IMG/VR virus record: IMGVR_UViG_3300032223_002013
Location: 1-30,907 of that record
DNA from: a virus
DNA length: 30,907 nucleotides
Direction: 5' to 3' (one strand)
The notes below the pieces were generated by a model that did not search any database, was not told the DNA's origin, and worked only from the letters and a program-made list of their open reading frames with translations. The position numbers and the translations under genes were made by a program. This document shows positions 1 to 26,678 of the stretch, piece after piece. Within the stretch, counting starts at the first letter, position 1; every line of letters begins with the position of its first letter.

Positions 1-95
1 ACCTTGGCTTGGTCCGTGCCTAGCCAGCGTAGCCAATTCTCACCTGCCTGACCATACTGCAGGTCTAGGTCGAACTTGGAGCGTTCATTCACCAT
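1..95 (-). CDS. Partial gene at left edge, possible phage nuclease-like protein (N-terminus only)
   Basis: An open frame starts with ATG at 95 on the minus strand and runs off the left edge, giving 31 residues beginning MVNERSKFDLDLQYGQAGEN. It overlaps the 3' end of the lysin gene by 7 nt, as expected for coupled phage genes. The opening KFDLDLQYGQ followed by a helical stretch recalls small phage proteins of PDDEXK-like fold, but the catalytic part lies outside the window, so that assignment is a guess. The short length and lack of a stop leave some doubt that it is translated; the tight overlap and phage-like composition support it. Confidence 0.55.
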   Translation of the reverse strand, partial: MVNERSKFDLDLQYGQAGENWLRWLGTDQAK

Positions 96-775: not shown

Positions 776-782
776 CAAGCAC

Positions 783-6376: not shown

Positions 6377-6379
6377 TTT

Positions 6380-6565: not shown

Positions 6566-6569
6566 TACC

Positions 6570-7307: not shown

Positions 7308-7313
7308 GACTTA

Positions 7314-7385: not shown

Positions 7386-7419
7386 ATTTCCGCCGAAAGG
7401 CACAAACCAAACAAGACAC

Positions 7420-7913: not shown

Positions 7914-8624
7914 CTACGCTGTGGTGTTCTGTGGCTCCGTCAAGCGACTCTTCACAGCCCTATGGCTCTTCCAGTATGCGTATCCACCCCAAGCCATAGC
8001 CAGAAGACACAGGGCGGCTGTCGCCATGTGGAACCAAGGTGACTCGACGACGCTCCTGATTACGAAAGGAGCACCGCCAAAGAAAACGGACAACGAAATC
8101 ATAACGAACCCAGCGAAACGTCCGACTCCTCCAAGGAACGTGGACAGCACGAATAATCCAGCACCGACGAATGCGAACGCACCAGCGATGCCTATGAACT
8201 TAGTCCTTAGTTCGCCCCAGTCCTTCTCACGCTGGGCGGATGCCAATGCCTCCCTAAGACCAGCGTTCTCCTCGTCCAGACGCTCGGCTTCCTGCTGAAG
8301 CCTGTCAGCCTCGGCTTCGACCTTGGCGGCTCGCTCACGCTCCTTGGCCAGCAAGGATGGGTCCAGCATGGCCTTCTGGTATTCGGCCACCTTGGCCACG
8401 CTAGGCTCCTTGATGCCAGCAAGCCTGACCTGAGTCAGTTCGACAAGCGACTTGCCCTTGCCCTCTATGCTCTTTGAGGCGACGGAAAGTGCCGACGCAC
8501 CATCGCTTGCTTCGGCTTCAATCTTGGCGATGTACCTGTCCTTCTCTGGGTTGTCCACCACCTTGACCACTGGGTCTGGGATGGTGCAACACCCAGCAAG
8601 GATGGCTGTGAACAGGTATTTCAT
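7914..8624 (-). CDS. Lipoprotein with coiled coil and three membrane segments; possible spanin-like lysis protein
   Basis: The 236-aa product starts at 8624, overlapping the holin stop by 4 nt (ATGA). The N-terminus MKYLFTAILAGCC is a short lipoprotein signal with lipobox ILAG and Cys12 as the lipidated residue. Residues about 80-135 form a charged coiled coil (AKERERAAKVEAEADRLQQE). Three hydrophobic segments follow at about 143-163, 167-189 and 198-218, with a basic tail. A lipoprotein next to a holin suggests an outer-membrane disruption (spanin) role in a Gram-negative host. Classic o-spanins lack inner-membrane helices and u-spanins have one, so three is odd. Alternatively it could be a membrane-anchored virion protein. 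It is the last leftward gene. Confidence 0.72.
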   Translation of the reverse strand: MKYLFTAILAGCCTIPDPVVKVVDNPEKDRYIAKIEAEASDGASALSVASKSIEGKGKSLVELTQVRLAGIKEPSVAKVAEYQKAMLDPSLLAKERERAAKVEAEADRLQQEAERLDEENAGLREALASAQREKDWGELRTKFIGIAGAFAFVGAGLFVLSTFLGGVGRFAGFVMISLSVFFGGAPFVIRSVVESPWFHMATAALCLLAMAWGGYAYWKSHRAVKSRLTEPQNTTA

Positions 8625-8917
8625 CGTACTTTAAGGAGACGCCTTCTTACGGCTTCGAGGACTTCGTGGGAGAACGTCCCGATGATGCTGTAAATCATCG
8701 CTTCGTAAATCGGAGGAACCAGACCATGTACCGCAAAATAGCCAAGGACACCCATTATTCCCCCAGCGATTGTCCTGCGAATCCAGATTATCCAGTGATG
8801 CGATTCGTCGCTTATCAGGAGTCGGCAGAACGCACCAAGAGCACCAAGGACCGCTACTATCCAACCGCCGTCTTTCAGGTCCTCGACTGTCTTTCCGATG
8901 TTTGGGTCTGGGCTCAT
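8621..8917 (-). CDS. Phage holin, LydA-like
   Basis: The 98-aa protein starts at 8917, overlapping the giant gene's stop by 4 nt, and ends in a 4-nt overlap with the lipoprotein gene. Hydrophobic segments at about 18-35 (GGWIVAVLGALGAFCRLL), 48-65 and 68-84 and a basic C-terminus (RRRLLKVR) fit small phage holins of the LydA / superfamily III kind; the GG-W-x5-G-A-x-G-A-x-C-R-L-L part is the most family-like. It would form holes in the inner membrane at lysis. The lysin lies far away at 89-775 and has its own signal peptide, so the holin may trigger by depolarisation or serve the spanin step. Confidence 0.77.
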   Translation of the reverse strand: MSPDPNIGKTVEDLKDGGWIVAVLGALGAFCRLLISDESHHWIIWIRRTIAGGIMGVLGYFAVHGLVPPIYEAMIYSIIGTFSHEVLEAVRRRLLKVR

Positions 8918-11900
8918 TGGTCATTCTGTCTGTAATTGGATTTGAACGGCTTGATGTAGTTTTTGAATGTCTTGACGGCGGTCCTAGCGGAGGTGTCCTT
9001 TCCGTAGCCAGCGACACTGAGAAGCGGAATTCCGTTGATGATGAGTTTCTTCATGTTGTCCGCATGAGCCTGAGTCGGGAACTCTGGCTTGATGACCATC
9101 AGCGGAGAAGTGAAGTTGGATGCTTCTGCCACTGCGGCGGCGAATTCATGGTCACTCATCCCATCACGAAGACCCATTGCGTACAGGGCAAACAGGAACC
9201 TAGCCTTCTGCTCGGATGAAGAGGTATTCCTGCTGCTTACTCCTCCTTCGATTTCCTGATAAAGACCAGTGCCATGTACGACTGGACCACGTTCATCGGT
9301 AAGGGTTCCGTTCGTGCTGAAATCCTGAACTCCTCCAGCAAACACCTTCTGCTGAAGGCCTACATTGACGGCATCGGTCCCCTTAGGATTGAAGTTAAGA
9401 TTGCCAGTAACGTTGAGGGCATGGTCAAGTGCGGCTGACTGAGACGGAGTCCTGTCCAGATTCTTAAGGCCTAGGTTTTCGGTCTTCTTCACTGCGTTAA
9501 TCAGCATGTGGCAACGCTTGACGTGTCCGCCAGCGGGTCCGTACTGCTTGATGAAGTTGGTGATGAACGGGACGTTTCCTAGGTACTTGGACGATTGGGC
9601 AATACGCTCCTGAAGAAGTTTCCCGTCATTGATTCCCCCTTCAAGCAACTTGCCGCTTTTCTTGTCATACAAATCCCAAGACGCTCCGTTGTACCTGACA
9701 TCAGGAATTTCGAATGCGTCATGAGAAACGGCCAAGATGCTCTTGAGCGGCTGTCCAGCATACTGGATTTCGGACATCCACCTAGGAATACCATAATTAA
9801 CGGCGTATCCGTGCATCTTGTCATGAGGGATTGCGACTGCTGGAACGTTGGAAGCATAAGCGATTCCAAGTTTCCTAGCGATGTCATCATGGCCATCACC
9901 GCTGGCTGAATTCCTCGCCATCTTTCCTATGTCATCTGGGGTCGGATTTTCTACGGCTTCTTGGAACGCATTTGCGTACCTTCTGGCGGCATTATCGACG
10001 AGAAGTTTGAATCCGTCCTCGAAATCCTGCCTCTTAAACATGTCGGAGAAGGCTTCGTTTGCGGCGGCTTTGAAATGTTCAATTATGTTGCCAGTAAGAT
10101 TATTATGAGTGTTCAGTTGCAACGACAGGGCAAGTTCACCCCTAGCAACCTTTCCGAAGAAGTCATCATGAGCCTTCTTTGAGTCGGCATGATTGACGAT
10201 GTAGGCAAGAAGGTTGGTTGACTTTCCAGCAGGTGCCAACTTGTTGCCGAACTTAACGAAATCAGCACTGTAGGAACTGGAAGAATACCTAGTCCTATGA
10301 TGTCTTGCGTCAGCCCAAGCGAGGCCAGTCTTTCCCTTCTGAAGGGCATCCATGACCAAGAAGTTGATGGACATAGAACGATAGGCGTTCTCTTCTCCTA
10401 GCGGGATGCTGTTCGGGTATGTGACATCCTGCTCAAGCGAGATGTTGGCCTTCTTGGACAACTCTTCCTTCTCCTTTACGAGTGCTTCGAACCTGTCCTT
10501 GGCACCATGGGTTGAATACCCGTCAACTACCGCTTCTGCAACAAGTTCGCACAACTTAGCGGCCATGCTCCTAGACTGGAAGTGCTTTGCTTCTGGTGCG
10601 TCTAGCCCCATCCTTCCTTCGTAAAGGCTTTGGGTGTCATAGGCATTGTCGAACGTCCTCATGGCTCTCCATTCGTGCCCATTTCCGATGTTTTCAACAG
10701 ACAGGATGGTTTCCATGTTATCATGGTCATTCGCTGGATTCCTTCCAGAGATGATTTCATCATAGGCCTCGATTGCTTTCTCCCTGAGTTCTCCTCTTTC
10801 GGAAAGTGCTTCCGTGAAATTCCTAAGGAATCTGTCCTTTGTCCTGAGGCCCATCTTGGTTGAAACCATTACATCAAGCCTCATGGCTTCTGCGGCGGTA
10901 AGCGAGAGTGCCCTTGCCGTCCTTCCTCCGTTAAGAGACATGGAATCGGTTACGTTGCTAGGAAGATTCAAATCAACCATCTTCATGCCGTTCTCCATCC
11001 CAGTGTCATAATCGCTGGAATTTAGGATGTAGAGACGCTTGGCGGACAATGCGTGGTTTTCCTTCCATTCACGTGGCTTTCCGATGAACTTATCGTTGGA
11101 AGGTTCCAAGATGTAACCAGAGTTGCCGTTGCTCTTGATGCCAGCGATAATCGACCTTCCGCTCACGTTGGACATCCTCTTGAAGTCCTGAGCAACATTA
11201 GAGATGACGATTCGGTCGGTTCCAGTAATCATGCTGTTCCTTCCGATTCTTTCTTCGAACGAAGAAGCGACACGCTTGGCCAACGCTTCATAATCGTAGG
11301 CGAACGTTCCAAGCCTTCCATCCATGTTAGCCCTATCGAGCATACTCGGAAGAAGTGCCGCAAAATGCTCATCCCTGCAGATTTCGTTGAAAATTACCTG
11401 TTTTAACTGGGAGAACGAATCGGTAGAAATGCTGGCATAGGCGTTCGGAGGAATTGGATTGTTAGGGTTCGCTTCTGGGTAAAGCGAATTGAAACTTTCC
11501 TCATTAATTGAGTTTCCGATGCTTCCATCGCCGCCGATGAAAATTCCGCCCAGCATGTAACACATGCTGTCATAGTATGGATTGGACTTGTCCAAGACAT
11601 AGGTCGGAATCTTCGGAGGAAGTCCAGTCTTGCCCTGAATCTCCTTGCTGACTTTGACTTCCCTTGAAGGGTCTTCTTGGAAGATGGACAGGAGTTTGAG
11701 TTTGGAATGCTCATCAAGGCTGGCACTTTCAATCATGGACTTGGCTTTCTCGACCATCAGGTGCTGTACCATCCTGCTGGAATTCTCGAACCTGCCTTCG
11801 AATGACAGGGATGACAATGCCAACGGCATGTACCTATTGGTTCGCATGACCTTTCCGTGTGCCCTTACGACTCCGTTAAGCCTTTGCCTTTCTTCTTCGA

Positions 11901-14900
11901 TTTTGACGTTGAGTTCCTGCAACTTGGGAAGAACTACCATGCCTTCCGCTTCCTTCAGGTCCGCTGGTAGTGCCGTAGCGATGGACTTGATGCCGAACGT
12001 GGAACGCTGGTATGGGTCTGACTGCAACTCTTCGATGTAGTCGATTGGGTGCACATTTGAACCTCCGCTTGCGATTTCATCCGCCATCTGGCTGATTCCA
12101 GTGCCGATGTTGGTAGAAAACACGGAAGCACCATCGGAAGTCCTAAGGTGGGAGTACTGCATGGTGCCGCTCGGACTGCTCCAATGGCCCTCACGCCTCA
12201 TCTCGCTTGCCAACGCCTTCCTGACATTGTACACGGCCTTAAGGGAATCCAGCATCTTGGTGACCTTGGAGATTTCCTTAGGGTCGGTTGCGGCGGCAAG
12301 ACGTGCCTTCAGTTCCTTTCCGTAGTTGTCGAGCCTAGCGATGGAAGCGTTGTCACTGACATGCCCATGAAGGACATGCACATGGTATGGGCCAAGTCCA
12401 GAGGCATACTGCGACCAATTGGCGGCACTGCCAGTATGGGCAACGCCGCTCGAATCATAACTACCGCTGTTGTTCCTGAATGCAATCTGCTCCGCATGGG
12501 TCATGCCAGCGGGGTATTCCTCGTCTGCGAATCCGTCACGAAGTCCTCCGATGTCGAATCCAGCATGTTCGGCGATTTGCCTGATAGATTCGTCCCTGTA
12601 CTTGCTAATCATGTTCTGCCTGAACAATTCGAGCGTAGAAGGGTTAATCCTAAGTTTTTCCCCAGCGGGTCCTGTTGCCATGAGGATGTAATCCGCAACG
12701 TGCATGTCCGCAGGAATGTCATCAGCCGCCGCCTGACCGCAGGTTTCAGCCAAGGATTCCTTGAATGACTTTCGGATTATGTCGCTGATGGCCTTTGCAG
12801 ACTGGGAAGGTCCGTCTTCGTTACGTTCGATGATTTCCCTAAGTTGATTTTCAACGGAAGAAATCTTGGCAAGGTATTTGGCTGTGTTCTTGTTATTCGC
12901 CCATTCTCCACTGGAAGTGACTGGCCAATGGTAGGTATTTTCGGAGGTTGAAATTGTCCTGTTCATGATGTGCCTACCGAACATAGGGTATGTAGCCGTC
13001 AGGAATTGCTGTACCTCGGACCTAGTCATCTGCTCATCTTTGTTCCTGTAAAGAAGGTCAGCGAGTCCAGTTACACGCATCTCATGCTTGCTGACTCCAT
13101 GGAACTGCATAAGGTCGAACATCTGCTGTCCAGTAATGGATTCCTTGAAGTGCTTATTCCTATCGCTACCGAATGCCAAGGCCCTCATTGCCTTTGATGC
13201 GAACCTGTAGATGGAACCAGCGGTGCCGAACGACATCCTGTTCTTTACGAGCCTTTCCATTTCTCCGAGTTCGGTACCTCCCACTGATAGCATGATTTGA
13301 CCACGTTCTGGTGCCTTTCCGCTCACCAAATCATTGGAAAGAAGAATCCTCTGTGCGGCCAACGCTTCCTGCTTTGTCATTGGCTTTTCGATGTCTCCAA
13401 CCCTGTAAAGTTCACTGCTTGGCTCGATGACGTTGGTAGTCTCGCTTTGGCCGAAAAGCAGAGACCTTACTGGTTCAATTTCTCCGTCAATCATCTTGGT
13501 CTGACCAAGATTCTCGACGTTGTATCGTGAACCTTCTCCGAACATGGACTTAGGGATGTGGGCCTCCGTGCTGGCTTGGCTGATGGTAGCGACGTATGCG
13601 TTAGCATCAGATTCGGTCCTGAATGGAACGACCTTTCTGGAGGTCTTTGGATTTCCATTGGTGTCGATTCCAGTAACGACGTCATGTCCGACCAAGAATC
13701 CAGCGTTCTTTCCAGACTTCTTGACCACCGAGATGTTGTTTCCTCCGCTTTTCTTGTCCCAAGCGTAGTGGGTAAGGTCTTCCCTGTTAGGAAACAAGAG
13801 CCTGATGGCGGCTTCCCTGTCGCCGTGAAGTTGGAGTTTCCTTTCTGCGTCTGGAACGTAATAGCCAGCATCGGAACCGAACACACGCTGGGACATCTCG
13901 GAAATGTCTGGAGCGAAGTTAGGCATCCTTGAAATAATCCCCCTGTAATTTTCCAAAGCGGTTGCGTTGGGGCTTCCGTAGTTGAGTGCGGCTGAATCTG
14001 TCTGATTAAACGAGAATTCGTTTCCAGCAGGTGCCGACGATTCGGACTGTCCTCTTTCTGACATCATTCCCCTTGCGTAATCCCTGTAGACGCCTTCGTT
14101 CCCGCTGGTGAAGTTGAACCCAGCCATCAACGAATTGCTGGAACCGATGATTCCCTTGCCCCTGTATGCGTTGTTTGCCATGTGCAACGAGGCAATAGCG
14201 GCCTGAACGTGCTCTGGCTTGGAATCCGCTGGAAGGATTAGCGTGGCATAGGTGCTCTGTGGATTGTTTAGGTGAATGATGTGGTCGGACTGAGATACTA
14301 GTCCGAAGTCATGTGCACCATAGCCAGCCTTCGCAGACGGGGAACTGGTATCGGACATAGGGTCATAGAAGTCTCCGCTAGAGCCAAGGAATGCGGCAAT
14401 CTTGCTCGCATCCGCATTATCACCGCTTGGATGGTTGTGCATGGACAGGTCTTCTTCGCTTGCACCGATGTCCTTGCTGAGAAGTCTGATTGCCTTTCCG
14501 TAATGCCTCTGGACCTCTGGGTCGAATGAGATTAGCGAAGCGATGTGCTTTGCCGAATTAAGGCTCTTCATCATGCCGCTCTGGTTCATCTTCTGTACCA
14601 AATCCGACATCCTGATGAAACTCTGAGGGATTATTGTTCCAGTATGTGCGTCGAATCCGATGCACTTTCTGAACGGGATTCCGACCTTGATTTTCGCACG
14701 TACGTTCTGGGACATTTCCGAGAGCATCGGGGTGTCGATGTCTGGGGAATAGTTAATCATGATGCGTCCATCAGAAAGCCTCTTCCAACTGATTCCCATC
14801 CTAGGGACATCTTGGCTACCGATTGGGTAGGCATAGTCAGAGCCCTGCCCATTGAAGGCCATGTTCGTGGAACGTTCCGTGAACTCATACCTTTGCTTTG

Positions 14901-17900
14901 CCGTCATGCCCATGAAGGACGATGGAATCCTTCCAGAAATCTGGAAACGGGCGGCAGGGGTCGAAACCTTTTCGGTTCCGAGAGAACGAGCGGCTTCGGC
15001 AAGTTGTTGCCTGATTACCTTCCTTCTCAGTTCGTTGCTGATGGTATCCTTGACGACTGGTGCGATTATGGAAGCAGTAGATGGTGGCCTTGGAGTTTCG
15101 GCAATTTGAGCGGAAACAGACTTAAGTTGGTCTGGTGTTCCGCATTCGACGTTTTCCTTGATGAATTTGGAAAGCGTGGTTTCCCCGTTCGTTACCCTGA
15201 ACCTCTTTCTCCTTATTTCGGTATTAGGGTCATACTTTTCAAGAGAAGTCCTGATGAAGTTTCCTCCGTTGTAACTGTAAGTATTGAACAATCCGATTGG
15301 CGAAGAAATCGACGGGAATCCCTGATGGAATCCGTGCACATTCTCAATAAACCTTTCGTTCGGCATGGGTTCAAAGTTCCTGAGTATGCTGGTTCCAGCG
15401 GACATGTATGATGCGACAGAGTTCATGTCCATCGTGTTGGTTCCCCTGTAGACGTAATCTGGGCCGACTATTCCCTGAGACTGAACGTTCGGAACAGAAA
15501 TCTCTTCGTGTGCTGGAAGGGATGCGAAGTAGCCATGCCAGAAATCAAGCGTCTTGACCGCAAGTGGCATGTTGGAAGAAAACACCTTTGCATGTGCCAC
15601 TGGGAATCCCCAGTTGTTTACGTCAGTGGTTGCGGTAGTTCCGCTGGACAGCATGTGCTCGGAATTAACGATGCAATAATCTACCGCTTTCCTGATGCCC
15701 AATCCGTCTGGGCCCATGTTCGGCACAAACTGCTTCTTGATGGTATGCTGGAATGAGGCTGGGTCCTGCTCTTGAATTTCCGCAAGTTGGTAGGCCATGG
15801 AAGCACCTACGGCGGTTCCGATGGTTTCCATGTTCTTCATGGTGGACATTTCTAAGGCAATCCTGTCATGGACAGTCTCTGGGATTGACATGAAGAAATC
15901 CCTGAGTGCGGCCTGTGCTTCTTGCGAAACCTGAGACATCGGCTTTTCGTATTCCCCACGCATGGCATGTTCTACGACTGCCTGATGCAGTGCGGAATCA
16001 AACGCCTTGGGAACCCCAAACCTAGGACTTCCTTCAGACCTTTCGAGGAAGCCACGGGTAATCAGCATCCTGACATAGGGGGAGGACATGGCACCGATTG
16101 CCGCATTGGAAACGCTGACACCAGTCTTATCACCGACGACAAACTTATGAGGTGCGTCGATGACGACCTTAGCCGCCTGAGAATTCTCATCTCCAAACAC
16201 CCTCTGCATTTCCTCACCTCCGATGGCATTGACCATGTCAGAAAGACCCATGCCAGCGTCCTTCGCATGCCTAACCGCATGGGTGAACAGTCCAGTTTCT
16301 ACGAGGGCATTTCCTCCGAAAAGGGACTGAAGGAACGGAGTCGGGTTGCTTGCTGGGGTAGAAAAGAACGTCCTGCTAGCATTTCCGTCGTAGATTTTCT
16401 TAAGCCTACTGATGATTGGTGAGTACCTATCTGATGGTGATACCTTCTTTGCGGAAGCGATAGTGCCTTCCTCGGTTGGAATGAGCATCTCGCCGTGCAT
16501 AATGAGTGGGCACGTAAGGTCGGTATGATACAGGTGACGCATGTTGGCGTTCCTGAGTTCGATTGGCATGCCAGACATCATGCCAGCGTGGTGGCTTACG
16601 ATTGTGTCTGCGTTCTTGTCTGGAAGGAAGAACTCTGGTGTGAAGTAAGCCCTATCTCCAATCCTGAAGGCTTGGATTCCAGAAGAAGCAAGAACTAGGC
16701 GTTCATCGCTTCCTCCCTGCATTTTCTGTCCCATCCTGAACCTAGTATGACGCCTTGCGTTTTCAGGAATAGAAGGTGCGTTGGAATTGACGGCCTTTGC
16801 GTACATCTCAGCGATTTTCTCGGCGATGGCCTTATCACGGGTTAGTCCGCTCTGTGCTTCGATGATTTCATCAATCTTGGACTGGGCCAACGAGGCGGCG
16901 GCGACATCTCCTCCAGCCTGTGCGTTAGTAACATCAGACTTAAGTTTCTCTACCTCCCTGCTAGCCTCATCGTTCGCCGAATTAATGTGGCTGATTACTG
17001 AGTCAATAGATTCTCTGAATGTTGAGAATGAGGTGCCCTGCGTCGAATTGTAGGAGTGCGTATTGTAAAGAAGTGCCTGAAGGCCACGCTCTGGGTAGGT
17101 TGAAATCTGTCCAAACAGGTGATTGCTTACGATTTCGGACTCAATCTGTGCTCCAAGTGCATCTGAAGTCTTAGATGCGGAGTTTCCATGTGCGAACACT
17201 GTCGCTTCTGCGGTATGTGCCGTGCCAGTGTAGACGCTTGTTGCGTCAGAAAGGTCCATTCCGATTCCATACCAAGCGGTTCCGATGTGGAGGGGTGCAT
17301 GAACTCCCCTAGGAGTGATGAACTTGTATTCTGCTCCTCCTAGTCCTTTGGAAAGGTGCGATACGTTGGCACGTTCTAGGCCAGTCTTAATCATGGTTCC
17401 AGTGACAGACACGCTTCCGCTCGCTTCTGGCTGATTCCACAGGTACTCTGCTAGGTGGCTGTTGTTGACTGCGTTAGCCGAGATTTCCAGAGACGACACA
17501 AAGGCGTCGTCCAGAAGGCCAGCGATAAACTCTGCGTAATTTCCGCTGTCTTTCTGGTTAAGTGCCCAATCCATGCACTGCTTCATGATTGGTTCGATGA
17601 TGAGCAGTTTGTGGGCAAGACGCTTGTTCAGTTCATAGGCGACTTGGTCGATGTTTTCGGCTTCCCTTCCAGTGGTCAGTTTCCTGAGTCGTTCATGGAA
17701 CGGACCATTGATGTGTTTTTCTACGGCCTTATCGAACACATCCTGCTCAACCCAGAACGGCTTTTCTGGCTCGAAACTGAGGATTCCCTGCTTGAACTTG
17801 TAAGCACCGACATTGAAATGATTTTTAGTAAGCGGAGTGTAGAGACGATAGCCGATGTTCTTCTGCACGGATTCGTTTCCAAGTGCGGTGCCAGACAGTG

Positions 17901-20900
17901 CTGGAATTGCTTTATTCTTATTGATGTTCTCAATCGTTAGAGGCCTAGTGGATGGAAGGGTTCCTTCCTTTCCATGCTGGATGGAACTGCTTTCGATGAA
18001 CGAATGCCTGAGTGCGATTAGGTTGGTGATGTCGTGCCTAGTGAGTTCGATGTCATTGAACTCATTGGCAATATGGTAGATTTTTGACATCGTCACGGCG
18101 TCATCGTCTGGGGAGAAGCCCCTGTCGATGAGATGCTGGATTATTTCTCCTCCCTTAAGTTTGTCTGGGAACGTACTCGAAAGCACCATGTCCATGACTG
18201 GGTTACCAACTGAAATTCCAGACTCTGATTCGATGACGACGTCTGCCAGCCTACAAATGTCCCCGATAGTAATCGTTCTGGAATGGCCTTCCGTGTATCC
18301 AGCCATGTTCATCGGGATTCCGCCCTTTGCGAACGTCTCATTAAACTTCTCAACGTTGCCCTTAAGCATGTAGGTCTTGTCGGAAAGAGTGACTCTTCCG
18401 TCTTCTCCGACTTCCCAGCCCCTTTGTGCTACGGCTACCCTGTTGAGTTTCGTGAGTTCGTTGCCAGCCCTGAATCCGAAATAATGGACAAGCATGGCCT
18501 TGCCTAGGGAGGCAATCATCCTGTTGTCGTCCTTGCCAGAAGTAAGGCCACCGATGCTGTTCATCACGATGCCGATGTTGCCAGACTTTCCATCGTAAGA
18601 ATCCCTGAGTGCCTTGCTGATTTCGGACGGCTTGATGATGGCGGAAGAACTCATGGCCCTGTCAATCAGGTCAAGAGTCGAGCCGTACATGAAGTTGCCA
18701 GTGTCCGTCCTATGATTGGTGGCGATTTCCACGTTGGACATGCCAGCCCTACGCTGGGTTTCCCTAGCCATGGATTCGCTGATGTCCATCAGGTAGGTGG
18801 CGTTGGCAAAGGAACTGACGGCATGCCTGAGAAGCGTGAGTTTCTCGGTAGCGGTCACGGACTTGTCGTTCTTGATTAGGGAGATGGACGAATAGACGCC
18901 CATCATGGTCCTAGCCGCCTTGTATTGGGTATCCCCAATCTGATAAACGCTCCACTCTGGGAACTTGTTGGCGATGTCTCCTAGTTCCTCGAACTCAGTC
19001 ACCATGTCGAACAGCCTGTCGTCGCTTACGACGCCCTTGGATTCCTCGAAAAGCCTTATGGCCCTTTCTGCAAAATTGATGGGTACGGCACCCCTGTCAT
19101 GGTATTCGGCACAGAATCCAGCAAGATGGCCAAGTGCACTGGTCAAGATTGGCCTAGCGGAATCATGGAGGCTCCTGAACACTGGCGAATCACCAAGTGC
19201 CATGATGGTCTTATCGGCGGCAGTTGGGTCATCGTGCATCGCCTTGTCATAGAACGAATCGACATCGACCCACGGCTCTTCTCCCTTAAGTGCCTTCTTG
19301 AGCGAGTCCTTGCCGAACATGGACTGCATTTTAGCAGTCTGCATGTCCTTGGTCAGGACGCTACCTTCGATGCCCATCAGGTTGGCGAAGTATCCGAGAA
19401 GAACTCCAGTGGTTACTTTGTTGAGAGGAATAGACCTATCCATCCCCTTGCTACGTTCCTGAAGGGCATGCTGAACTTCGTGAAGGATTACGCTGGCCGC
19501 TGGGTTCTTGGATGCGAACTTTTCAAGCAGTGAATCCTTCGAGCGTAGGTAGTTCCCCATCTCCTTGCTACCCATGCTCCTCATGATTTCAGAGGCACAG
19601 AACATCCTAGCACCAAGCCTGATGCGTTCTCCTCCGCTACAATGGGGAGGGGCGTACTGGGCACCGAACCCATCGAAGAACTCAACCTTCATGTCCTTCA
19701 TTTCTGGGTAGTAGAAATAAAGGGTGCTATGTTCGAACACGTCGCCTAGTTTGGACGTAGACAGTTCCTTGTTGGTGATGATTCCGCCTTCGGTAAGTTT
19801 CTGGTAGTTTGCGAATGCGAACTCTGGGTTCTTTTCTCCTACAAAAGGAGTAAGGAACGGCTTATTCCCGTTCTTGTCCATGTTGAGTCCAGCCTCCTTG
19901 TCGGAGAATTCGAACACGTTAAGTACGTTCCCGTTCCTATCATACATCCTCCTCACCAATCCAAGGTCAAAAAGTTCGCTAATTCTAAGTTCATCTTTTA
20001 TGGACTGGATGCCAGCGATGCTAAGAAGTGGGGATGGTTCCGACGTAATCGTGGCAGTCTCAAGGCATTTTTCATTGAGACTAGCGACCTTTTCGATGTG
20101 CGACCTGATGCTGGAAAGGTCAGCCTCACTCATGAAATCCTTGAACATCTTTGCACCATACAGCGAATTGACGGCCATGTGTAGTGCAGTTTCTCCACTT
20201 TTACCAGAAGCCCAGTAATGGGACAAAGACTGGTTCCAAGTAGCCATGGCTTCCCTCTTAACCCTAGCATTCCAATCATCAAACTTCTGTTCGTCGTATT
20301 GGGTAATCAAAGAAAGCCTAGACCTGACCGCTTCTTGGTCCATGGCCTTTTCGAGTTGAATGGCTCCGTACGCTGGAACGATTGCGGCTGTAATCTTGTT
20401 TTCAACCGCAACGTCCCTGAGCCCTTCAAGCAGTGCCATTCTGTCGGAATCGCTTTCGTATTTCTTGAAAAGGTTATAGACGTCGTCCTTCACCCCTTCG
20501 TTGCAGTAATTGATGATTGCGGCGACAGTATGACCATGGTTAATCCTGTCGATTGCCCTCTTGCTTATCTGGGAGCCAGAAACCATGTCAGCAACCTGTG
20601 CTGGAAACGCCGTGATTGAACTAAGTCCATCGGCCCTAGGAGTGTTCTTGTTGAACCCCCTAGGCTGTTTGACACGTTCCTTTTGACTGCCTAGGGTCCT
20701 GCCTCCCTTGAATCCCCTGAATTTATTTTTACCGCTTTCGATGGTGACGATTTCAAGCGTTGGAGTAGCGATGCCGACGCCACGTGAGACGCTGAAAATG
20801 TAGACTGGGTGTTCTGAGGACTGATTAAGCGATTCGTGCGTTGCGTCGATGAAGTTAATCGCCATGTTCGGGTAGTTTCTTCCCTCACTACCCATGTCTG

Positions 20901-23900
20901 CGTTAGGAGTATCATCGACACGCTGGAACAGTCCATGGAGAATCTCTCCTCCTACCCTGTAGCAACTTTCGACAACCGAAGATTCCTTGTCGTCCAAGAA
21001 ACGCCTTAATTCTGAGATTTTAGACGAGATTTTTCCTTCTTTGTCTTGATAGGAAGGTGCAGACCTTTCTTTGCCTTCCGAGTCTATGACAGTGCCGAAT
21101 TTGGATTCCTTGATTGCCAATGCCAATTCGCAGATTTTAACGACGCCTTCCTTGTAAGATTCGACATCCTGCTTCGGAATTTTCCTAAGTTCGGTAGCAT
21201 ACCTGCTGTAGATGGCTTTTGCGTCCTTGTCGGACATGTCATAGGTTCCTTCCGTCAACGCATTTACGCCAGACTTAGAAAGCCACTTGATGGATTCCGC
21301 ATACTCGGAGGCGGATTTGCTTTGGCTTTCTTCTACCGATTTTGCGGTAGCGTTTTTGTAACCATTTGCGATTTTTACGTCAGAATCTACGTTGTGCGAA
21401 AAAACCTTTTCGGTCGGTTCTACGAAAACTGATTTAATCGGGAATTTTCCACGCATTGACTGAGACAACGCCATAGACCTTTCATCAAGAGCCGCACGTA
21501 GAAGTTCAATCCTAGCGGACTTGTCTGGGATTGACCTGAGGTGCTCCATGTCAACGTTGACGGAAAAAGTCCTCTGTTCTTCGCTCCAGATGAGCCTGAA
21601 GTAACTTCCAGTGTTTTTGTAGGAAATACCAGTGCTTCTTCCTTTTGCTTGAGTCATGGGGACTACTCCCATGTTTCCGATGTCATAATGCCCATCATTG
21701 AATTCCTTGTTGAACCCATCTAGCGATTTGGCACTTTCTTCTTCCAGCAAGTCCTTGTAAATTGCCTTATTGCTCATGATTTGAGCATCTAGGTAATCCC
21801 AATCGTTACGCAGTTTCTCCCTAAACTTGATTTCCTCACCGCTTTCAGTGTAGCCAGCCGTAGAAAGCATCGCTCCATCTGGTCCGAAGTTGGACTTGTA
21901 CATGCCAGCCGCATCCTTGTAACTTACCTTTTCAGCAAGGTCGCTGATTGGGTTGACCGATGATTCGCTCGGTGCTGGCATCCTGTCCGCTGGGTCCATC
22001 TTCCTGATGTCCCTGTCGGCAATCTTGGCACCCTTTGCGATGCTATCGACGACGTCCATGAGTACGCCGAACGGATTGAAAACCTTAAACTTGGAGCCGT
22101 TCTTAAGGATTTCGTAGCCATTGGCGTTCATGTACCTCTCGTTCTTTCCTACTTTTTCGAAGCCAGCGACGGACAGGTTACGCCTAAATCCTTCATAGGA
22201 ACGGCCATGGTGGTATGGGAACGGCATGCTAGGCGACCTAGCGACGTCCACCATCAGTTCCAGTTTGAAGGAATTGATGGGGAAATTGGGTCCACGTACG
22301 TTCACATGGCCGTCGGACGGAGTATTGATGTACGACTCATCGCCCCTCTTTACCGCACCGAAAATCTGATGGCAGATGTCCCTTACCTGAGCGGCCTTAG
22401 GACCGAATTCGCTGAAGAACAACTCTTCGGACGGAACTCTGATGGACGGCTCGCTCATCATGTTAATCATGTACGAGTCGAACGTCCTGTTCATGTGGCC
22501 GATGTCGGAGAAGACGGCCTGAACGTCTCCCCTGCTCCAAGCCTTAATCTTACGCCTATGGATGGCTAGGTAGTCGATTGCCGTTACGTTAAGGCTGTGT
22601 TTCGGGGACTTGAGCCTCCTGCCATTGGCATCGGTAATCCTCTGAGTCATGTTCATCTCGAACGGGACGAACACACGATGGGTGATGGGAACATCCGAGC
22701 CCCTGAGCCTTTCAAGAAGCCCGTTCCTGATAATTTCATGGCTATCGCCCCAATAGACACCAGTCATGATGTTCGGGGTGGAGAAGCCAGTCTCTTCGTA
22801 ATGACGCATCACGTCGGCGATGGCCCTGCCATAGGTTGCCGTAGCCTCATCCATGCAACCAGACTTAACAAGGGCATCCCATGCGGCTGGATTAAGCCTA
22901 GTCATGTCAATCCTGCCGTTGCCATGTTGGTCAACGATGACTTCTGGCCTGATAGACTCGTCTAGGCTGGTGAGAACCTCAAAGCCTTTCCTAGAACGCT
23001 CAGCAAGGATTTCATTAACATCCTTGGTTCCCTTCATGGTCATCCCAGCCTTGGCCGCATTGAAAAGGAATTCCTTTCCGAATCGCCTTGCTTCGATTGC
23101 CTGACGTTCTGGGGAAAGTCTGCTTACTGGCTGTGCGTCGCTATTGATGGCTTTCTTGACGTAGGACTTGATGAAGGAGTCCATTTCCTGCCACCTGACC
23201 ATTTTTCCATTATCATAGGTATGGGCCATGGTCTGGAATGAAGGACTGCCATTTGCGTCAATAAATTGGTTATTTGAAACACGCATTCCAGCGAGTTCCA
23301 TGTGGGTAACGTTGCTTGCGAACAGGCTATCACGCTTTGCCTCAAGCAACATCCTGACTGGCATCATGGCGTCTGGCGTAGTCATGCTTGCCAGATTTGT
23401 GTGCATGAAAAGATGCTCGGACCTAGATGCGATAATTTCTTCGAACAGGTATTGTGCACCGAATCTCACGCCAGTCCTCATCTGGAAGTCATGGATTTCA
23501 GCGTATGCTGGGTCCCTGACATCTCCCATGACGTTTGAGTAGAGGTCTTTTCCAAGGAAATGGCTCATCGTCGGGAATTCATCCCTAATCACGTTGATGA
23601 CGTTATCCCTGAAGTGACCACGCAAAAGTTCGTAATTTGCCTTTGCCTTCTTGTTAAAGAAGTCGAGGTAACTTTGGTCTGATGGACTTGGCTCTCTTCC
23701 AGTCTGCATTCTGTATTCAGCATTGACCATGTCCTTATTGATAAGAGTCATGGTGGTAGCCGCCATCTGGGAGGCATAATCAATCATGTGCTGGTCTGGA
23801 ATTACACCTCCGTCTCGCTTGGAGCCAAAGAACTGATGGAAGAACTCGGGCATGTGCCCGTCCATGAGCATGTACTTATTCAGCATGTGCCCCATGATTT

Positions 23901-25749
23901 CATGGGCAACATCGGCAGACCTGTGTCCACGTCCGCCATCGTTGATGAACATCAAGCCACGTTCTTTCCCAGCAAGGGCATCATGGTATGTGGTGAATGA
24001 AGCATGTCCATACTGACTGGAATGTGCATGCTTGTAGGCCTGAATAGGGTCTATTCCTTTGCTGACAAGGTAATCCCCAAACGACTTGGCATCACCTATG
24101 TGGATGTAGACATCCTTGAGCCTGTCACGGGCCGCATCGGCAGCCATCTGCAGAACGGTCCTTACGTTAGCGGAAATCTTGCTAGAGCCCATCCTGTCCG
24201 CATCGGCAATCAATGTCCTAGCGACAGTTGCGAATTCTGGATTAAGTTTTTCGTAATGCGGAAGACTACGCTCATCGAAATTCTTGATGATGAGTGCATG
24301 CGACATGCCGCCATTTGCCACAGACCAAAGATGCCTGACTGCGCCGCTGTATCCGCTCCATACCATTCCCATGGCGGCACCGCTGATTGCACCCTTATCC
24401 CTGTCATTTAGGTATCCAAGCGTGGCGAACTCAAGTCCACCCTTGTAGGAAGCCTTGAGTGCAGAAGTGGACATCTGCAGGACTGGGTCCACAGTGTAAG
24501 AGAGGAACTTAGCCGCCGCCTGACCAGACTTGGACAGAGGTGATGTGGCCACCTTCTCAAGAAGGGTAAGGCCAGACATGCCGCTTGATTCTACGACGCC
24601 AGAAGCCCTAAGTGCACCCTGATAGCCGATTTCCTTGGCAACTTCTGAGAAAGTCCTAAGGCCAAGTGAGCCTAGAATGCCGACAGTGGCCTGAACTTCT
24701 CCAGCACCGATTTCACGGCCTAGGTCAAGGGCGGCAGATTCTGCGATGTTTCGTACTTCTGCGGATGAGCGTCCAATCTTGGATGCGATGCCCTCCGTAG
24801 TGCCACCGATGATGTTGCCTACGAAAGTTGCTGGGCCTTCAAGTGCACCGCCGACTGCACCAACAGTGCCAGTGGCCATTTTTCCAGCGAGCCTAGAGGC
24901 GTAATTCTCGAACTTGGTAGCAAGACCGCCAAGGGATTTGCCAACCTTGGCCGCTTCTGCGGCACGGGTTCCTGCGGAAATAAGGCTAGAGCCAGCCTCC
25001 ATGGCGGCAACCGCACCAGCACCACCAGTCCAAGCGGAGGAAAGGATGGCTGGAAGTTCGAGGCCAATGTAGCCCATGGCGTGGGCAATCTTCGGGTTGA
25101 CGAACGACTGGATGGTCTGCCTGTCGCTGTCGTTCAGTTTAGTCAACTGGTCCAGAAGGACCTCATCGCCATTCTGAATTTTCGTGGAATGCCAAAGGAA
25201 TTTACGGGCGTCATTCCACTGCTGGGCTTCCTCACGCCAGTTTGCGGATGGCTTGCCGTTGACGAGTGCGTTGATGGCAGACTTGAACCTGAAAAGCGGT
25301 GAAGTGGGGTTCTCGGACTGTGCGGCAAGGCCCCACATGTCCCTGATTGCCCTGCCAGTGCCTTCGATGGTCGAACCAGCCCATACGGCTGGATTCGGGT
25401 TCTCAGCCATACCCTCGACGAGCGTAAGGGGGAGTGAGGCGATTTCGGAAGCGGTATCGCCAAAGAGTTTCAGGTAATCGGTATGCCTGTCAGCAAACGC
25501 ACCCTTGATTTCATTCCAATTCTTTTCGGCATCGGGAGCATCCAAGTCCAGCATCCTGTTCTTGTTCTGCTCATAGTAGTCCAAGATGTCGTTCTGGTTG
25601 TCACCAGCCGACGGAAGCGAGTTATCCTGACTGTTGCTCTGGATGTAGTCCTGTAGCGGTTGCCCATGGATACGCATCATGTCTGCGTACCTTCCTACAT
25701 CGCTAAAATCCTGTGGGTTTAAACCTTGTGCAGAGGGGTCTTCGCTCAT
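8914..25749 (-). CDS. Giant polyvalent protein (5,611 aa) with zincin-like, RadC/JAB-like and multiple polyvalent-associated domains
   Basis: A single uninterrupted frame of 5,611 codons takes up over half the window. Residues about 1-200 are helical. About 225-470 are Gly/Ala-rich hydrophobic stretches resembling membrane-active ejection proteins. A zincin-like motif HEIMGH lies at 616-621, with EEII...SEHLF downstream. Around 1995-2110, YYPEMKD, GERIRLGARM and LHEVQHALQ (H2090, E2091, H2094) form a second, canonical HExxH module of the type found in polyvalent proteins. HNHPSG at 3771-3776 is a RadC/JAB-like motif. The C-terminal 1,400 residues hold further polyvalent-associated patterns: GVSKHEMRVTGLADLL (about 4219-4234), YIEELQSD (to 4578), GLAWADARHHRTRY (about 5143-5156) and an FIKQYG segment near 5400. 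Known family members are thought to enter the host with phage or plasmid DNA and to counter defences. Neighbours are virion-type genes upstream and lysis genes downstream. No polymerase motif was recognised. Confidence 0.92.
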   Translation of the reverse strand: MSEDPSAQGLNPQDFSDVGRYADMMRIHGQPLQDYIQSNSQDNSLPSAGDNQNDILDYYEQNKNRMLDLDAPDAEKNWNEIKGAFADRHTDYLKLFGDTASEIASLPLTLVEGMAENPNPAVWAGSTIEGTGRAIRDMWGLAAQSENPTSPLFRFKSAINALVNGKPSANWREEAQQWNDARKFLWHSTKIQNGDEVLLDQLTKLNDSDRQTIQSFVNPKIAHAMGYIGLELPAILSSAWTGGAGAVAAMEAGSSLISAGTRAAEAAKVGKSLGGLATKFENYASRLAGKMATGTVGAVGGALEGPATFVGNIIGGTTEGIASKIGRSSAEVRNIAESAALDLGREIGAGEVQATVGILGSLGLRTFSEVAKEIGYQGALRASGVVESSGMSGLTLLEKVATSPLSKSGQAAAKFLSYTVDPVLQMSTSALKASYKGGLEFATLGYLNDRDKGAISGAAMGMVWSGYSGAVRHLWSVANGGMSHALIIKNFDERSLPHYEKLNPEFATVARTLIADADRMGSSKISANVRTVLQMAADAARDRLKDVYIHIGDAKSFGDYLVSKGIDPIQAYKHAHSSQYGHASFTTYHDALAGKERGLMFINDGGRGHRSADVAHEIMGHMLNKYMLMDGHMPEFFHQFFGSKRDGGVIPDQHMIDYASQMAATTMTLINKDMVNAEYRMQTGREPSPSDQSYLDFFNKKAKANYELLRGHFRDNVINVIRDEFPTMSHFLGKDLYSNVMGDVRDPAYAEIHDFQMRTGVRFGAQYLFEEIIASRSEHLFMHTNLASMTTPDAMMPVRMLLEAKRDSLFASNVTHMELAGMRVSNNQFIDANGSPSFQTMAHTYDNGKMVRWQEMDSFIKSYVKKAINSDAQPVSRLSPERQAIEARRFGKEFLFNAAKAGMTMKGTKDVNEILAERSRKGFEVLTSLDESIRPEVIVDQHGNGRIDMTRLNPAAWDALVKSGCMDEATATYGRAIADVMRHYEETGFSTPNIMTGVYWGDSHEIIRNGLLERLRGSDVPITHRVFVPFEMNMTQRITDANGRRLKSPKHSLNVTAIDYLAIHRRKIKAWSRGDVQAVFSDIGHMNRTFDSYMINMMSEPSIRVPSEELFFSEFGPKAAQVRDICHQIFGAVKRGDESYINTPSDGHVNVRGPNFPINSFKLELMVDVARSPSMPFPYHHGRSYEGFRRNLSVAGFEKVGKNERYMNANGYEILKNGSKFKVFNPFGVLMDVVDSIAKGAKIADRDIRKMDPADRMPAPSESSVNPISDLAEKVSYKDAAGMYKSNFGPDGAMLSTAGYTESGEEIKFREKLRNDWDYLDAQIMSNKAIYKDLLEEESAKSLDGFNKEFNDGHYDIGNMGVVPMTQAKGRSTGISYKNTGSYFRLIWSEEQRTFSVNVDMEHLRSIPDKSARIELLRAALDERSMALSQSMRGKFPIKSVFVEPTEKVFSHNVDSDVKIANGYKNATAKSVEESQSKSASEYAESIKWLSKSGVNALTEGTYDMSDKDAKAIYSRYATELRKIPKQDVESYKEGVVKICELALAIKESKFGTVIDSEGKERSAPSYQDKEGKISSKISELRRFLDDKESSVVESCYRVGGEILHGLFQRVDDTPNADMGSEGRNYPNMAINFIDATHESLNQSSEHPVYIFSVSRGVGIATPTLEIVTIESGKNKFRGFKGGRTLGSQKERVKQPRGFNKNTPRADGLSSITAFPAQVADMVSGSQISKRAIDRINHGHTVAAIINYCNEGVKDDVYNLFKKYESDSDRMALLEGLRDVAVENKITAAIVPAYGAIQLEKAMDQEAVRSRLSLITQYDEQKFDDWNARVKREAMATWNQSLSHYWASGKSGETALHMAVNSLYGAKMFKDFMSEADLSSIRSHIEKVASLNEKCLETATITSEPSPLLSIAGIQSIKDELRISELFDLGLVRRMYDRNGNVLNVFEFSDKEAGLNMDKNGNKPFLTPFVGEKNPEFAFANYQKLTEGGIITNKELSTSKLGDVFEHSTLYFYYPEMKDMKVEFFDGFGAQYAPPHCSGGERIRLGARMFCASEIMRSMGSKEMGNYLRSKDSLLEKFASKNPAASVILHEVQHALQERSKGMDRSIPLNKVTTGVLLGYFANLMGIEGSVLTKDMQTAKMQSMFGKDSLKKALKGEEPWVDVDSFYDKAMHDDPTAADKTIMALGDSPVFRSLHDSARPILTSALGHLAGFCAEYHDRGAVPINFAERAIRLFEESKGVVSDDRLFDMVTEFEELGDIANKFPEWSVYQIGDTQYKAARTMMGVYSSISLIKNDKSVTATEKLTLLRHAVSSFANATYLMDISESMARETQRRAGMSNVEIATNHRTDTGNFMYGSTLDLIDRAMSSSAIIKPSEISKALRDSYDGKSGNIGIVMNSIGGLTSGKDDNRMIASLGKAMLVHYFGFRAGNELTKLNRVAVAQRGWEVGEDGRVTLSDKTYMLKGNVEKFNETFAKGGIPMNMAGYTEGHSRTITIGDICRLADVVIESESGISVGNPVMDMVLSSTFPDKLKGGEIIQHLIDRGFSPDDDAVTMSKIYHIANEFNDIELTRHDITNLIALRHSFIESSSIQHGKEGTLPSTRPLTIENINKNKAIPALSGTALGNESVQKNIGYRLYTPLTKNHFNVGAYKFKQGILSFEPEKPFWVEQDVFDKAVEKHINGPFHERLRKLTTGREAENIDQVAYELNKRLAHKLLIIEPIMKQCMDWALNQKDSGNYAEFIAGLLDDAFVSSLEISANAVNNSHLAEYLWNQPEASGSVSVTGTMIKTGLERANVSHLSKGLGGAEYKFITPRGVHAPLHIGTAWYGIGMDLSDATSVYTGTAHTAEATVFAHGNSASKTSDALGAQIESEIVSNHLFGQISTYPERGLQALLYNTHSYNSTQGTSFSTFRESIDSVISHINSANDEASREVEKLKSDVTNAQAGGDVAAASLAQSKIDEIIEAQSGLTRDKAIAEKIAEMYAKAVNSNAPSIPENARRHTRFRMGQKMQGGSDERLVLASSGIQAFRIGDRAYFTPEFFLPDKNADTIVSHHAGMMSGMPIELRNANMRHLYHTDLTCPLIMHGEMLIPTEEGTIASAKKVSPSDRYSPIISRLKKIYDGNASRTFFSTPASNPTPFLQSLFGGNALVETGLFTHAVRHAKDAGMGLSDMVNAIGGEEMQRVFGDENSQAAKVVIDAPHKFVVGDKTGVSVSNAAIGAMSSPYVRMLITRGFLERSEGSPRFGVPKAFDSALHQAVVEHAMRGEYEKPMSQVSQEAQAALRDFFMSIPETVHDRIALEMSTMKNMETIGTAVGASMAYQLAEIQEQDPASFQHTIKKQFVPNMGPDGLGIRKAVDYCIVNSEHMLSSGTTATTDVNNWGFPVAHAKVFSSNMPLAVKTLDFWHGYFASLPAHEEISVPNVQSQGIVGPDYVYRGTNTMDMNSVASYMSAGTSILRNFEPMPNERFIENVHGFHQGFPSISSPIGLFNTYSYNGGNFIRTSLEKYDPNTEIRRKRFRVTNGETTLSKFIKENVECGTPDQLKSVSAQIAETPRPPSTASIIAPVVKDTISNELRRKVIRQQLAEAARSLGTEKVSTPAARFQISGRIPSSFMGMTAKQRYEFTERSTNMAFNGQGSDYAYPIGSQDVPRMGISWKRLSDGRIMINYSPDIDTPMLSEMSQNVRAKIKVGIPFRKCIGFDAHTGTIIPQSFIRMSDLVQKMNQSGMMKSLNSAKHIASLISFDPEVQRHYGKAIRLLSKDIGASEEDLSMHNHPSGDNADASKIAAFLGSSGDFYDPMSDTSSPSAKAGYGAHDFGLVSQSDHIIHLNNPQSTYATLILPADSKPEHVQAAIASLHMANNAYRGKGIIGSSNSLMAGFNFTSGNEGVYRDYARGMMSERGQSESSAPAGNEFSFNQTDSAALNYGSPNATALENYRGIISRMPNFAPDISEMSQRVFGSDAGYYVPDAERKLQLHGDREAAIRLLFPNREDLTHYAWDKKSGGNNISVVKKSGKNAGFLVGHDVVTGIDTNGNPKTSRKVVPFRTESDANAYVATISQASTEAHIPKSMFGEGSRYNVENLGQTKMIDGEIEPVRSLLFGQSETTNVIEPSSELYRVGDIEKPMTKQEALAAQRILLSNDLVSGKAPERGQIMLSVGGTELGEMERLVKNRMSFGTAGSIYRFASKAMRALAFGSDRNKHFKESITGQQMFDLMQFHGVSKHEMRVTGLADLLYRNKDEQMTRSEVQQFLTATYPMFGRHIMNRTISTSENTYHWPVTSSGEWANNKNTAKYLAKISSVENQLREIIERNEDGPSQSAKAISDIIRKSFKESLAETCGQAAADDIPADMHVADYILMATGPAGEKLRINPSTLELFRQNMISKYRDESIRQIAEHAGFDIGGLRDGFADEEYPAGMTHAEQIAFRNNSGSYDSSGVAHTGSAANWSQYASGLGPYHVHVLHGHVSDNASIARLDNYGKELKARLAAATDPKEISKVTKMLDSLKAVYNVRKALASEMRREGHWSSPSGTMQYSHLRTSDGASVFSTNIGTGISQMADEIASGGSNVHPIDYIEELQSDPYQRSTFGIKSIATALPADLKEAEGMVVLPKLQELNVKIEEERQRLNGVVRAHGKVMRTNRYMPLALSSLSFEGRFENSSRMVQHLMVEKAKSMIESASLDEHSKLKLLSIFQEDPSREVKVSKEIQGKTGLPPKIPTYVLDKSNPYYDSMCYMLGGIFIGGDGSIGNSINEESFNSLYPEANPNNPIPPNAYASISTDSFSQLKQVIFNEICRDEHFAALLPSMLDRANMDGRLGTFAYDYEALAKRVASSFEERIGRNSMITGTDRIVISNVAQDFKRMSNVSGRSIIAGIKSNGNSGYILEPSNDKFIGKPREWKENHALSAKRLYILNSSDYDTGMENGMKMVDLNLPSNVTDSMSLNGGRTARALSLTAAEAMRLDVMVSTKMGLRTKDRFLRNFTEALSERGELREKAIEAYDEIISGRNPANDHDNMETILSVENIGNGHEWRAMRTFDNAYDTQSLYEGRMGLDAPEAKHFQSRSMAAKLCELVAEAVVDGYSTHGAKDRFEALVKEKEELSKKANISLEQDVTYPNSIPLGEENAYRSMSINFLVMDALQKGKTGLAWADARHHRTRYSSSSYSADFVKFGNKLAPAGKSTNLLAYIVNHADSKKAHDDFFGKVARGELALSLQLNTHNNLTGNIIEHFKAAANEAFSDMFKRQDFEDGFKLLVDNAARRYANAFQEAVENPTPDDIGKMARNSASGDGHDDIARKLGIAYASNVPAVAIPHDKMHGYAVNYGIPRWMSEIQYAGQPLKSILAVSHDAFEIPDVRYNGASWDLYDKKSGKLLEGGINDGKLLQERIAQSSKYLGNVPFITNFIKQYGPAGGHVKRCHMLINAVKKTENLGLKNLDRTPSQSAALDHALNVTGNLNFNPKGTDAVNVGLQQKVFAGGVQDFSTNGTLTDERGPVVHGTGLYQEIEGGVSSRNTSSSEQKARFLFALYAMGLRDGMSDHEFAAAVAEASNFTSPLMVIKPEFPTQAHADNMKKLIINGIPLLSVAGYGKDTSARTAVKTFKNYIKPFKSNYRQNDQ

Positions 25750-26678
25750 TCGATTTCCTTGGATTTAGCGTCCAAAGACCTGCTAGCCAAGGATTTTTGA
25801 ACCGCACCATTCGACGAAATCAGGTCAATGCCATTGGCCTGACCAGCGGACCTAAGTTTGTCCAGAACCTGCTGTCTGGTACGCTTCAGGAGGGCCATCT
25901 CGTTGCCTCCGAGCCTACTGAACACCCTAGACGCCCTATGCGGCGTCATGGACTCGATGATTTCCATGTCATGGTCGGATACGCCAGCACCGATACCCTT
26001 GGCGTTCGTCATCATGTGAGAATAGTCCAGCATGATACGGGCTTCCAGTGCCTTGGCTTCGGCGGCATCTTGTGTCGGTAGGATACCAGAAAGCACGGAA
26101 TGTTTCTGGTAGATGCGTTCGAGGTTCGCTAGGTTGTCGAGCAAGCCCTTGCCAGTGCCAAGCAGTTCCCTGAACTTTTCGGCTTCGGTATCGCCTCCTT
26201 TGAACGGAACGGACATGACTGGAGCCTTGCGTCCGTTAATCGTTCTGTTGGCGGCTAGCATCCAAACAGGCACCTTCTTGTTGCCATCCCTAGTGGGGAT
26301 AATCTTGTCACCCCTAGGGACGATTTGCATCTGCATCTTGCCCCCGTCTTCGCCCATGTCGAATTCATGGGGCTCGAACATCTTGAACACGGACTTACCC
26401 TCCTTGGACTGCGTGAGGGCGGCGGCACCGCCGATGTCGCCCATCTCATTGGCGTAGAAGTCTGCGTCGTTCCTGTACAACGAACCAGACTGTGCCATGT
26501 TCGTAAGGCCAGCCTGACTAGCACCGCCAGCGGAGCGACGCTGGAACAACGGCTCAAGTTCGCTCAGCGGACTCATGCCAGCATTGGCGTACTGCTGTCC
26601 CCTGTTGGGGTAGTACCATTGGTCGCCAGACTGTGCCTGAACGTCGCTAGGGCTGATGCTGAAGTTGTCGGAATCCAT
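25746..26678 (-). CDS. Putative internal virion protein (310 aa)
   Basis: Starts at 26678, sharing one base with the previous stop (TAATG), and overlaps the giant gene by 4 nt. The N-terminus is Gln/Ser/Gly-rich and probably disordered. The middle (about 110-165) is beta-rich with MQMQIVPRGDKIIPTRDGNK and VPVWMLAANRTINGR. The C-terminal half is helical: a segment around YSHMMTNAKGIGAGVSDHD followed by a Pro-containing helix (SMTPHRASRV) recalls phage internal or scaffold proteins with a G-x-(V/I)-S-D-x-(D/E) motif. It likely belongs with the giant protein in the virion. No enzymatic motif. Confidence 0.77.
   Translation of the reverse strand: MDSDNFSISPSDVQAQSGDQWYYPNRGQQYANAGMSPLSELEPLFQRRSAGGASQAGLTNMAQSGSLYRNDADFYANEMGDIGGAAALTQSKEGKSVFKMFEPHEFDMGEDGGKMQMQIVPRGDKIIPTRDGNKKVPVWMLAANRTINGRKAPVMSVPFKGGDTEAEKFRELLGTGKGLLDNLANLERIYQKHSVLSGILPTQDAAEAKALEARIMLDYSHMMTNAKGIGAGVSDHDMEIIESMTPHRASRVFSRLGGNEMALLKRTRQQVLDKLRSAGQANGIDLISSNGAVQKSLASRSLDAKSKEIE

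Follow-up and report, generated by a model that had tools for sequence, protein, structure and literature searches.

A family of polyvalent-type giant proteins of about 5,600 residues, probably ejected, encoded at the end of a podovirus-like late operon

Large polyvalent proteins of phages are encoded among virion genes and carry zincin-like sites, which include HEXXXH, a described variant of the polyvalent MPTase; Iyer et al. (2017) proposed that such zincins are active-site variants in which the helix is bent (PMC5512222). Other giant phage proteins are the virion RNA polymerases (vRNAPs) of N4 (3,500 aa) and RPP1 (3,760 aa), which have no cysteine and contain a HEXXH domain; N4 vRNAP is ejected together with smaller partners. 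In Lessievirus, one gene of more than 13 kb that encodes a DarB-like protein ends the virion module shortly before the lysis genes. BcepIL02 keeps such a protein, gp70 (4,667 aa, zero cysteine, one HEXXH), shortly before the holin, and its homologue JC1 gp69 (4,515 aa) was detected in virions by mass spectrometry (PMC9144972). In Venkman, phiM5 and tf, the genes of the internal virion proteins stand last in the late operon, before or near the lysis genes or the terminator, and the phiM5 proteins were detected in particles.

The window analysed here is a whole IMG/VR virus record of 30,907 bases, and its giant protein, referred to as W, shares features with each of these systems. It resembles the large polyvalent proteins in its zincin-like sites, including the HEXXXH variant, in its place among virion genes and, over residues 540-1300, in a Foldseek match to proteins of uncultured Caudovirales that are annotated as large polyvalent proteins. 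In contrast to them, it is longer than the comparators measured, is about 16% identical or less to its structural matches and contains no recognised curated LPD, ART, PBECR or other domain. The vRNAPs are about 2,000 residues shorter. SU10, tf, phiM5 and Venkman have a related major capsid protein, the same gene order and Cys-free internal virion proteins that close the late operon; however, they have no giant, and the largest internal virion protein in their records is 1,473 aa (SU10_024). The explanation preferred here, and considered probable, is that the giant is a packaged and ejected polyvalent-type internal virion protein of an SU10/LUZ24-like podovirus, with zincin domains that would be active in the host.

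The giant frame and its relatives

The ATG of the giant gene overlaps the stop of the preceding gene, and its stop overlaps the next gene. The following features of the frame were located in the window:

8914..25749 (-): giant gene W, 5,611 aa, ATG start, 0 internal stops
24250..25449 (-): conserved region near the N-terminus, residues 101-500, rich in Gly/Ala from 251 on (identity to relatives; composition)
21880..23352 (-): most conserved core, residues 800-1290 (alignment; modelled)
12970..13902 (-): conserved block, residues 3950-4260 (family alignment)
12007..12033 (-): EELQSDPYQ signature, residues 4573-4581, with E-E-x-Q-S-D-x-x-Q invariant in the members covering it
9490..10452 (-): conserved C-terminal blocks, residues 5100-5420 (family alignment)

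Relatives were retrieved from viral contigs by patterns derived from residues 1-400 and from blocks 780-1300 and 3880-4320. A single-sequence scan of viral contigs with the C-terminal part gave no match, whereas an alignment-based scan gave ten loci. Six other independent contigs were found to carry one frame of about 5,650-5,780 aa that was colinear with W from end to end. The single-frame relatives comprised 5,676 (G003), 5,748 (G004), 5,782 (G008), 5,649 (G011) and 5,650 aa (G012), and the frame of G010 was at least 5,664 aa and still open at the contig end. Further relatives of 4,339, 3,741, 2,594, 2,462 and 1,420 aa were cut by contig ends. There were two main branches that were about 20% identical, and the chains nonetheless aligned end to end. 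Over residues 30-540, members of the nearer branch were 41-46% identical to W, and G010-G013 were 27-31% identical to it. Invariant columns numbered 273 of 5,611, with partial members included wherever they covered a column.

The pN/pS ratio was 0.36 for W and the partial relative G007, which is 62% identical to it, and 0.41 for G011 and G012. Purifying selection thus acts on the giant frame. Because independent frames of the same size were present in other records, it was concluded that W was not produced by assembly joining of separate genes; together with the pN/pS values, these frames also ruled out a chance ORF. Therefore, what the initial annotation had described, a single uninterrupted frame of 5,611 residues that is far larger than N4 vRNAP (3,500 aa), was confirmed, and the artefact that it had named as a refuting case was excluded by the six other contigs. 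Its Gly/Ala-rich N-terminal stretch was also real (30% G+A at residues 251-500), and no segment of W reached the hydropathy cut-off used for a membrane helix. Its description of residues 1150-1990 as matching nothing, on the other hand, missed residues 1100-1250, which are the most conserved part of the whole family.

Profile searches of Pfam and PHROGs gave no convincing match for any member scanned, either with single proteins or with family profiles; a search of PDB sequences with family profiles gave no match, and tblastn against 50,697 phage records revealed no relative. The giant contains several separate conserved blocks, none of which was given a domain name by Pfam or PHROGs. It may be concluded that the family of polyvalent-type, probably ejected proteins of about 5,600 residues is real and uncharacterised.

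The contigs of G011 and G012 had exact direct repeats of 127 and 87 bases, respectively, at their ends. Such repeats are what an assembler leaves on a closed circle, and the two genomes are apparently closed. Taken as circular, they measure about 47.4 and 47.55 kb, and the giant gene occupies 36% of each. G001 and G007 came from one metagenome, shared an identical 127-base overlap and both ended inside the giant gene; therefore, they are probably two pieces of one genome that was broken there. Assemblies may often lose the giant gene in this way. The sole match in genome contigs was a 3.5-kb contig from a Crocinitomicaceae MAG, on which 1,039 aa of the giant are encoded. It may be a stray member of that bin and so does not name a host, although it is perhaps a hint to one.

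Zincin-like sites, the split form and predicted structure

The sites considered in this section were as follows:

23350..24132 (-): zincin-like domain 1, residues 540-800 (predicted strand/helix order before the motif helix; Foldseek match)
23887..23904 (-): HEIMGH motif, HEXXXH and not HEXXH, residues 616-621 (alignment)
23440..23442 (-): Glu770, invariant and a candidate for the third metal ligand
18742..20052 (-): zincin-like region 2, residues 1900-2336 (alignment)
19468..19482 (-): HEVQH (HEXXH) motif, residues 2090-2094, with invariant H, E, Q, H and Gln2097
18739..18744 (-): position of the split in G013, W residues 2336/2337, just behind zincin-like region 2
14419..14439 (-): HNHPSGD fragment, residue 3771, not conserved (alignment)

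Both zincin-like motifs that had been noticed in W alone proved to be conserved sites. At the columns of W 616, HEXXXH was also present in G003, G004, G008, G001, G002 and G005, and G010-G013 had HEYGH, HEYSH or HEFGH, that is, the canonical HEXXH. The polyvalent MPTase variant and the canonical form therefore occur at one site in one family, which supports the proposal of Iyer et al. Glu770 could be the third metal ligand of this site. At the second site, HEVQH and Gln2097 were kept in every member covering it, with only Val/Ile varying.

The RadC/JAB-like motif suggested by the initial annotation was not upheld. A JAMM metal site, as in RadC, consists of HxHP followed by S-x-x-D at a set spacing. 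HNHP at residue 3771 was present only in W and G007 (HNHPNGE in the latter), in a stretch showing no conservation, and neither protein had S-x-x-D at the JAMM spacing. A RadC/JAB domain was not accepted for these reasons.

In G013, the same protein is encoded by two abutting genes of 2,367 and 3,289 aa with an ATGA overlap (L057 12590-12593). AGAGG, a Shine-Dalgarno-like sequence, lies five bases 5' of the ATG of the second gene, and neither frame is open across the junction. The two products matched residues 1-2391 and 2392-5647 of G011 with no gap. The G010 chain was 70% identical to the second G013 gene product and 53% identical to the first; the fused and split forms are therefore closely related and may swap parts. 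As G013 demonstrates, each half can be produced as a chain of its own, and residue 2336 is a natural domain boundary marked by this two-gene version.

The split has a bearing on a variant of the preferred explanation, compatible with it, in which the giant is a precursor polyprotein. The zincin-like domains would cut it before or during packaging, and the virion would carry several shorter proteins instead of a 600-kDa chain. The naturally separate halves of G013, divided right after zincin-like region 2, are consistent with this, as are the conservation of both motif sites and the processing of P1 DdrB before packaging; however, N4 vRNAP, another protein with a zincin domain, is packaged without being processed (PMC5512222). 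Moreover, the fused form was kept at nearly constant length in all cases but one, and the giant has no known cleavage site. Processing of this kind is considered rather unlikely.

Residues 540-1300 of W were modelled with AlphaFold2 from eleven sequences (mean pLDDT 69.5, pTM 0.53). The first part of the model ran from a strand through two helices and two further strands to the helix bearing HEIMGH, and this predicted order of elements fits a zincin-like core. A Foldseek search of predicted viral structures (BFVD) gave ten matches at E <= 1e-3, the best at 7e-16. Four of the ten bore polyvalent names (large polyvalent protein associated domain or ART-PolyVal-like, from uncultured Caudovirales); these were aligned over half to all of the query, and proteins with such names were among the matches at E 7e-16 to 6e-9. 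The TM-scores of the matches were 0.10-0.34; thus, the similarity lies in local structure and its order and not in one rigid body. Since the relative placing of domains differs or is uncertain, the TM-scores were low, and E-value and probability were relied on instead. The assignment of W to the polyvalent type, made earlier from the letters of one sequence, therefore gained structural support.

A Foldseek search of the PDB with the same model gave nothing below E 1. A known metallopeptidase toxin matched the model through its N-terminal zincin-like domain (Z 4.0-4.5); this match agrees with a zincin-like fold but is within noise. A match to a WYL domain (Z 7.6 over 84 residues) was rejected as probably a chance arrangement. 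Structure prediction by segments, which had been recommended for W, was thus productive for residues 540-1300 and unusable for residues 3640-4640, for which the pLDDT was 46.8 and no reading was drawn from the model.

It was also considered whether W is a divergent virion RNA polymerase related to N4 vRNAP, with the core at residues 800-1290 being the polymerase. Giant size, a HEXXH domain and freedom from cysteine are features of N4 and RPP1 vRNAP that recur in the family, and model residues 527-602 gave a weak local match to the mitochondrial RNA polymerase of yeast (64 residues, Z 4.1). However, this Z is within the noise named by the tool, and neither blastp nor HMM similarity to the N4 or RPP1 vRNAP nor a match to a polymerase profile was found. 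A polymerase is regarded as very improbable.

Genomic position and cysteine depletion

The genes adjoining the giant, and the endolysin gene, were as follows:

30217..30792 (-): ORF of about 190 aa, no Cys from the likely start MQNIS
28545..30215 (-): Pro-rich gene of 556 aa without Cys, probably for an internal virion protein
27700..28545 (-): gene for a probable internal virion protein of 281 aa, Cys-free
26678..27694 (-): gene for a probable internal virion protein of 338 aa, Cys-free
25746..26678 (-): 310-aa gene, overlaps the start of the giant (ATGA), no Cys, probable internal virion protein
8621..8917 (-): 98-aa holin-like gene, overlaps the stop of the giant (weak LydA holin match, E 0.009, below the cut-off)
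7914..8624 (-): probable lysis accessory of 236 aa, with hydrophobic segments at the C-terminus and a coiled-coil-like stretch (weak match to an Rz-like spanin, E 0.12)
89..811 (-): 240-aa SLT-type transglycosylase/endolysin (Pfam SLT, E 7e-4, 19.5 bits versus a cut-off of 21.3)

The Pro-rich gene contains an imperfect tandem repeat with a period of 24-27 at 29539-29628. An early module at 2325-7755 (+) encodes a sigma-70 region 4/LuxR-type HTH protein, a DUF3799 PD-(D/E)XK nuclease, an HTH_36 protein, an IstB/DnaC-like ATPase, an ERF recombinase and a ribbon-helix-helix protein, and two tRNA genes of the early region, Pro(tgg) and Arg(cct), lie at 1300-1374 (+) and 7314-7385 (+). The contigs of the relatives carry a head module in which the major capsid protein and the adaptor are of the SU10 type, together with the terminase large subunit (TerL) and a scaffold. 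Relatives of this capsid protein occur in tf, phiM5, Venkman and neighbouring podoviruses. The giant is located at the end of the internal-virion block of the late operon, after the tail genes and beside the lysis genes, which is the position of podovirus ejection proteins.

By position and size, DarB-like protection is the closest analogue, with no homology involved. A DarB-like antirestriction protein would shield incoming DNA from type I restriction, and the place of the giant before the lysis genes, its size and its near-zero cysteine content resemble BcepIL02 gp70, whose homologue JC1 gp69 reaches the virion. However, no sequence similarity to gp70 was found, and no Pfam profile of a methylase or helicase matched. 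An antirestriction role of this type is judged quite unlikely.

Cysteine content was the second line of evidence for delivery. Among the giants, G003 had no Cys in 5,676 residues, G012 and G013 had 3 each, G010 and G011 had 5 each, G008 had 6, G004 had 9 and W had 20. The eight complete or nearly complete giants together had 51 Cys in 45,436 residues, and the partial chains of 4,339, 3,741 and 2,594 aa had none. W is the least depleted copy (0.36%), far above its relatives. Other genes on the same contigs had 1.1-1.8% Cys where enough sequence exists. The three to six genes just upstream of the giant had none, and head and tail genes further upstream contained Cys.

As a control, annotated or placed ejected proteins of T7, P22, SU10, phiM5, tf, Venkman, N4 and BcepIL02 were used. 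With the ejected set following deposited annotation and gene position, not individual experiments, for tf, Venkman, SU10 and BcepIL02, the ejected proteins of these eight podoviruses had 1 Cys in 18,089 residues, compared with 113 in 20,862 (0.54%) in their other virion proteins (Fisher 1e-29); their non-virion proteins had 233 in 16,809. No statement of such depletion was found in the limited literature searched, so it may well be known. Its likely reason is passage through the oxidising periplasm in an unfolded state.

The near-absence of cysteine suggests that the giants are ejected. A structural protein of the tail or head that remains in the particle would also fit a giant gene in the late operon that adjoins virion genes. 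However, in its Cys frequency the family groups with ejected proteins and not with other virion proteins, and the structure matches polyvalent proteins, which makes a structural role very unlikely. Delivery from the capsid, which had been proposed from gene order, was thus supported, indirectly, by both position and cysteine depletion.

Proposed delivery and its implications

According to the preferred explanation, an ejected polyvalent-type protein, the giant would be made late together with four to six smaller internal virion proteins and packed in the head with these partners. Ejection would then take it through the tail and across the periplasm, either together with the DNA or ahead of it. 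Once in the cell, its zincin-like metallopeptidase domains may cut the chain into working pieces, with a boundary at 2336, or may cut host proteins, and its other domains would protect or establish the genome; protection, take-over and the start of transcription are candidate roles for them. Packaging, ejection, the peptidase activity and the roles of the remaining domains are the parts of this explanation that we infer.

It may be suggested, tentatively and with some doubt, that the chain of about 5,600 residues is threaded intact through the podovirus tail and that a thiol-free sequence is a general requirement for this passage. If this is true, the giant would rank among the longest proteins that any virus moves across an envelope, and ejected phage proteins, unknown ones among them, could be recognised simply from sequence by their lack of cysteine.

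In the podoviruses examined, the cysteine signature sets ejected proteins apart from the majority of other virion proteins. It is open to large-scale testing, and this compositional marker makes the idea of delivery testable. The two-gene version in G013 marks a domain boundary, and the family alignment, with its zincin site that changes from HEXXXH to the canonical HEXXH, provides a direct test of the 2017 prediction. The giant takes up 36% of a genome of 47.5 kb, and its length has stayed nearly constant despite drift to 20% identity; therefore, its function pays for itself.
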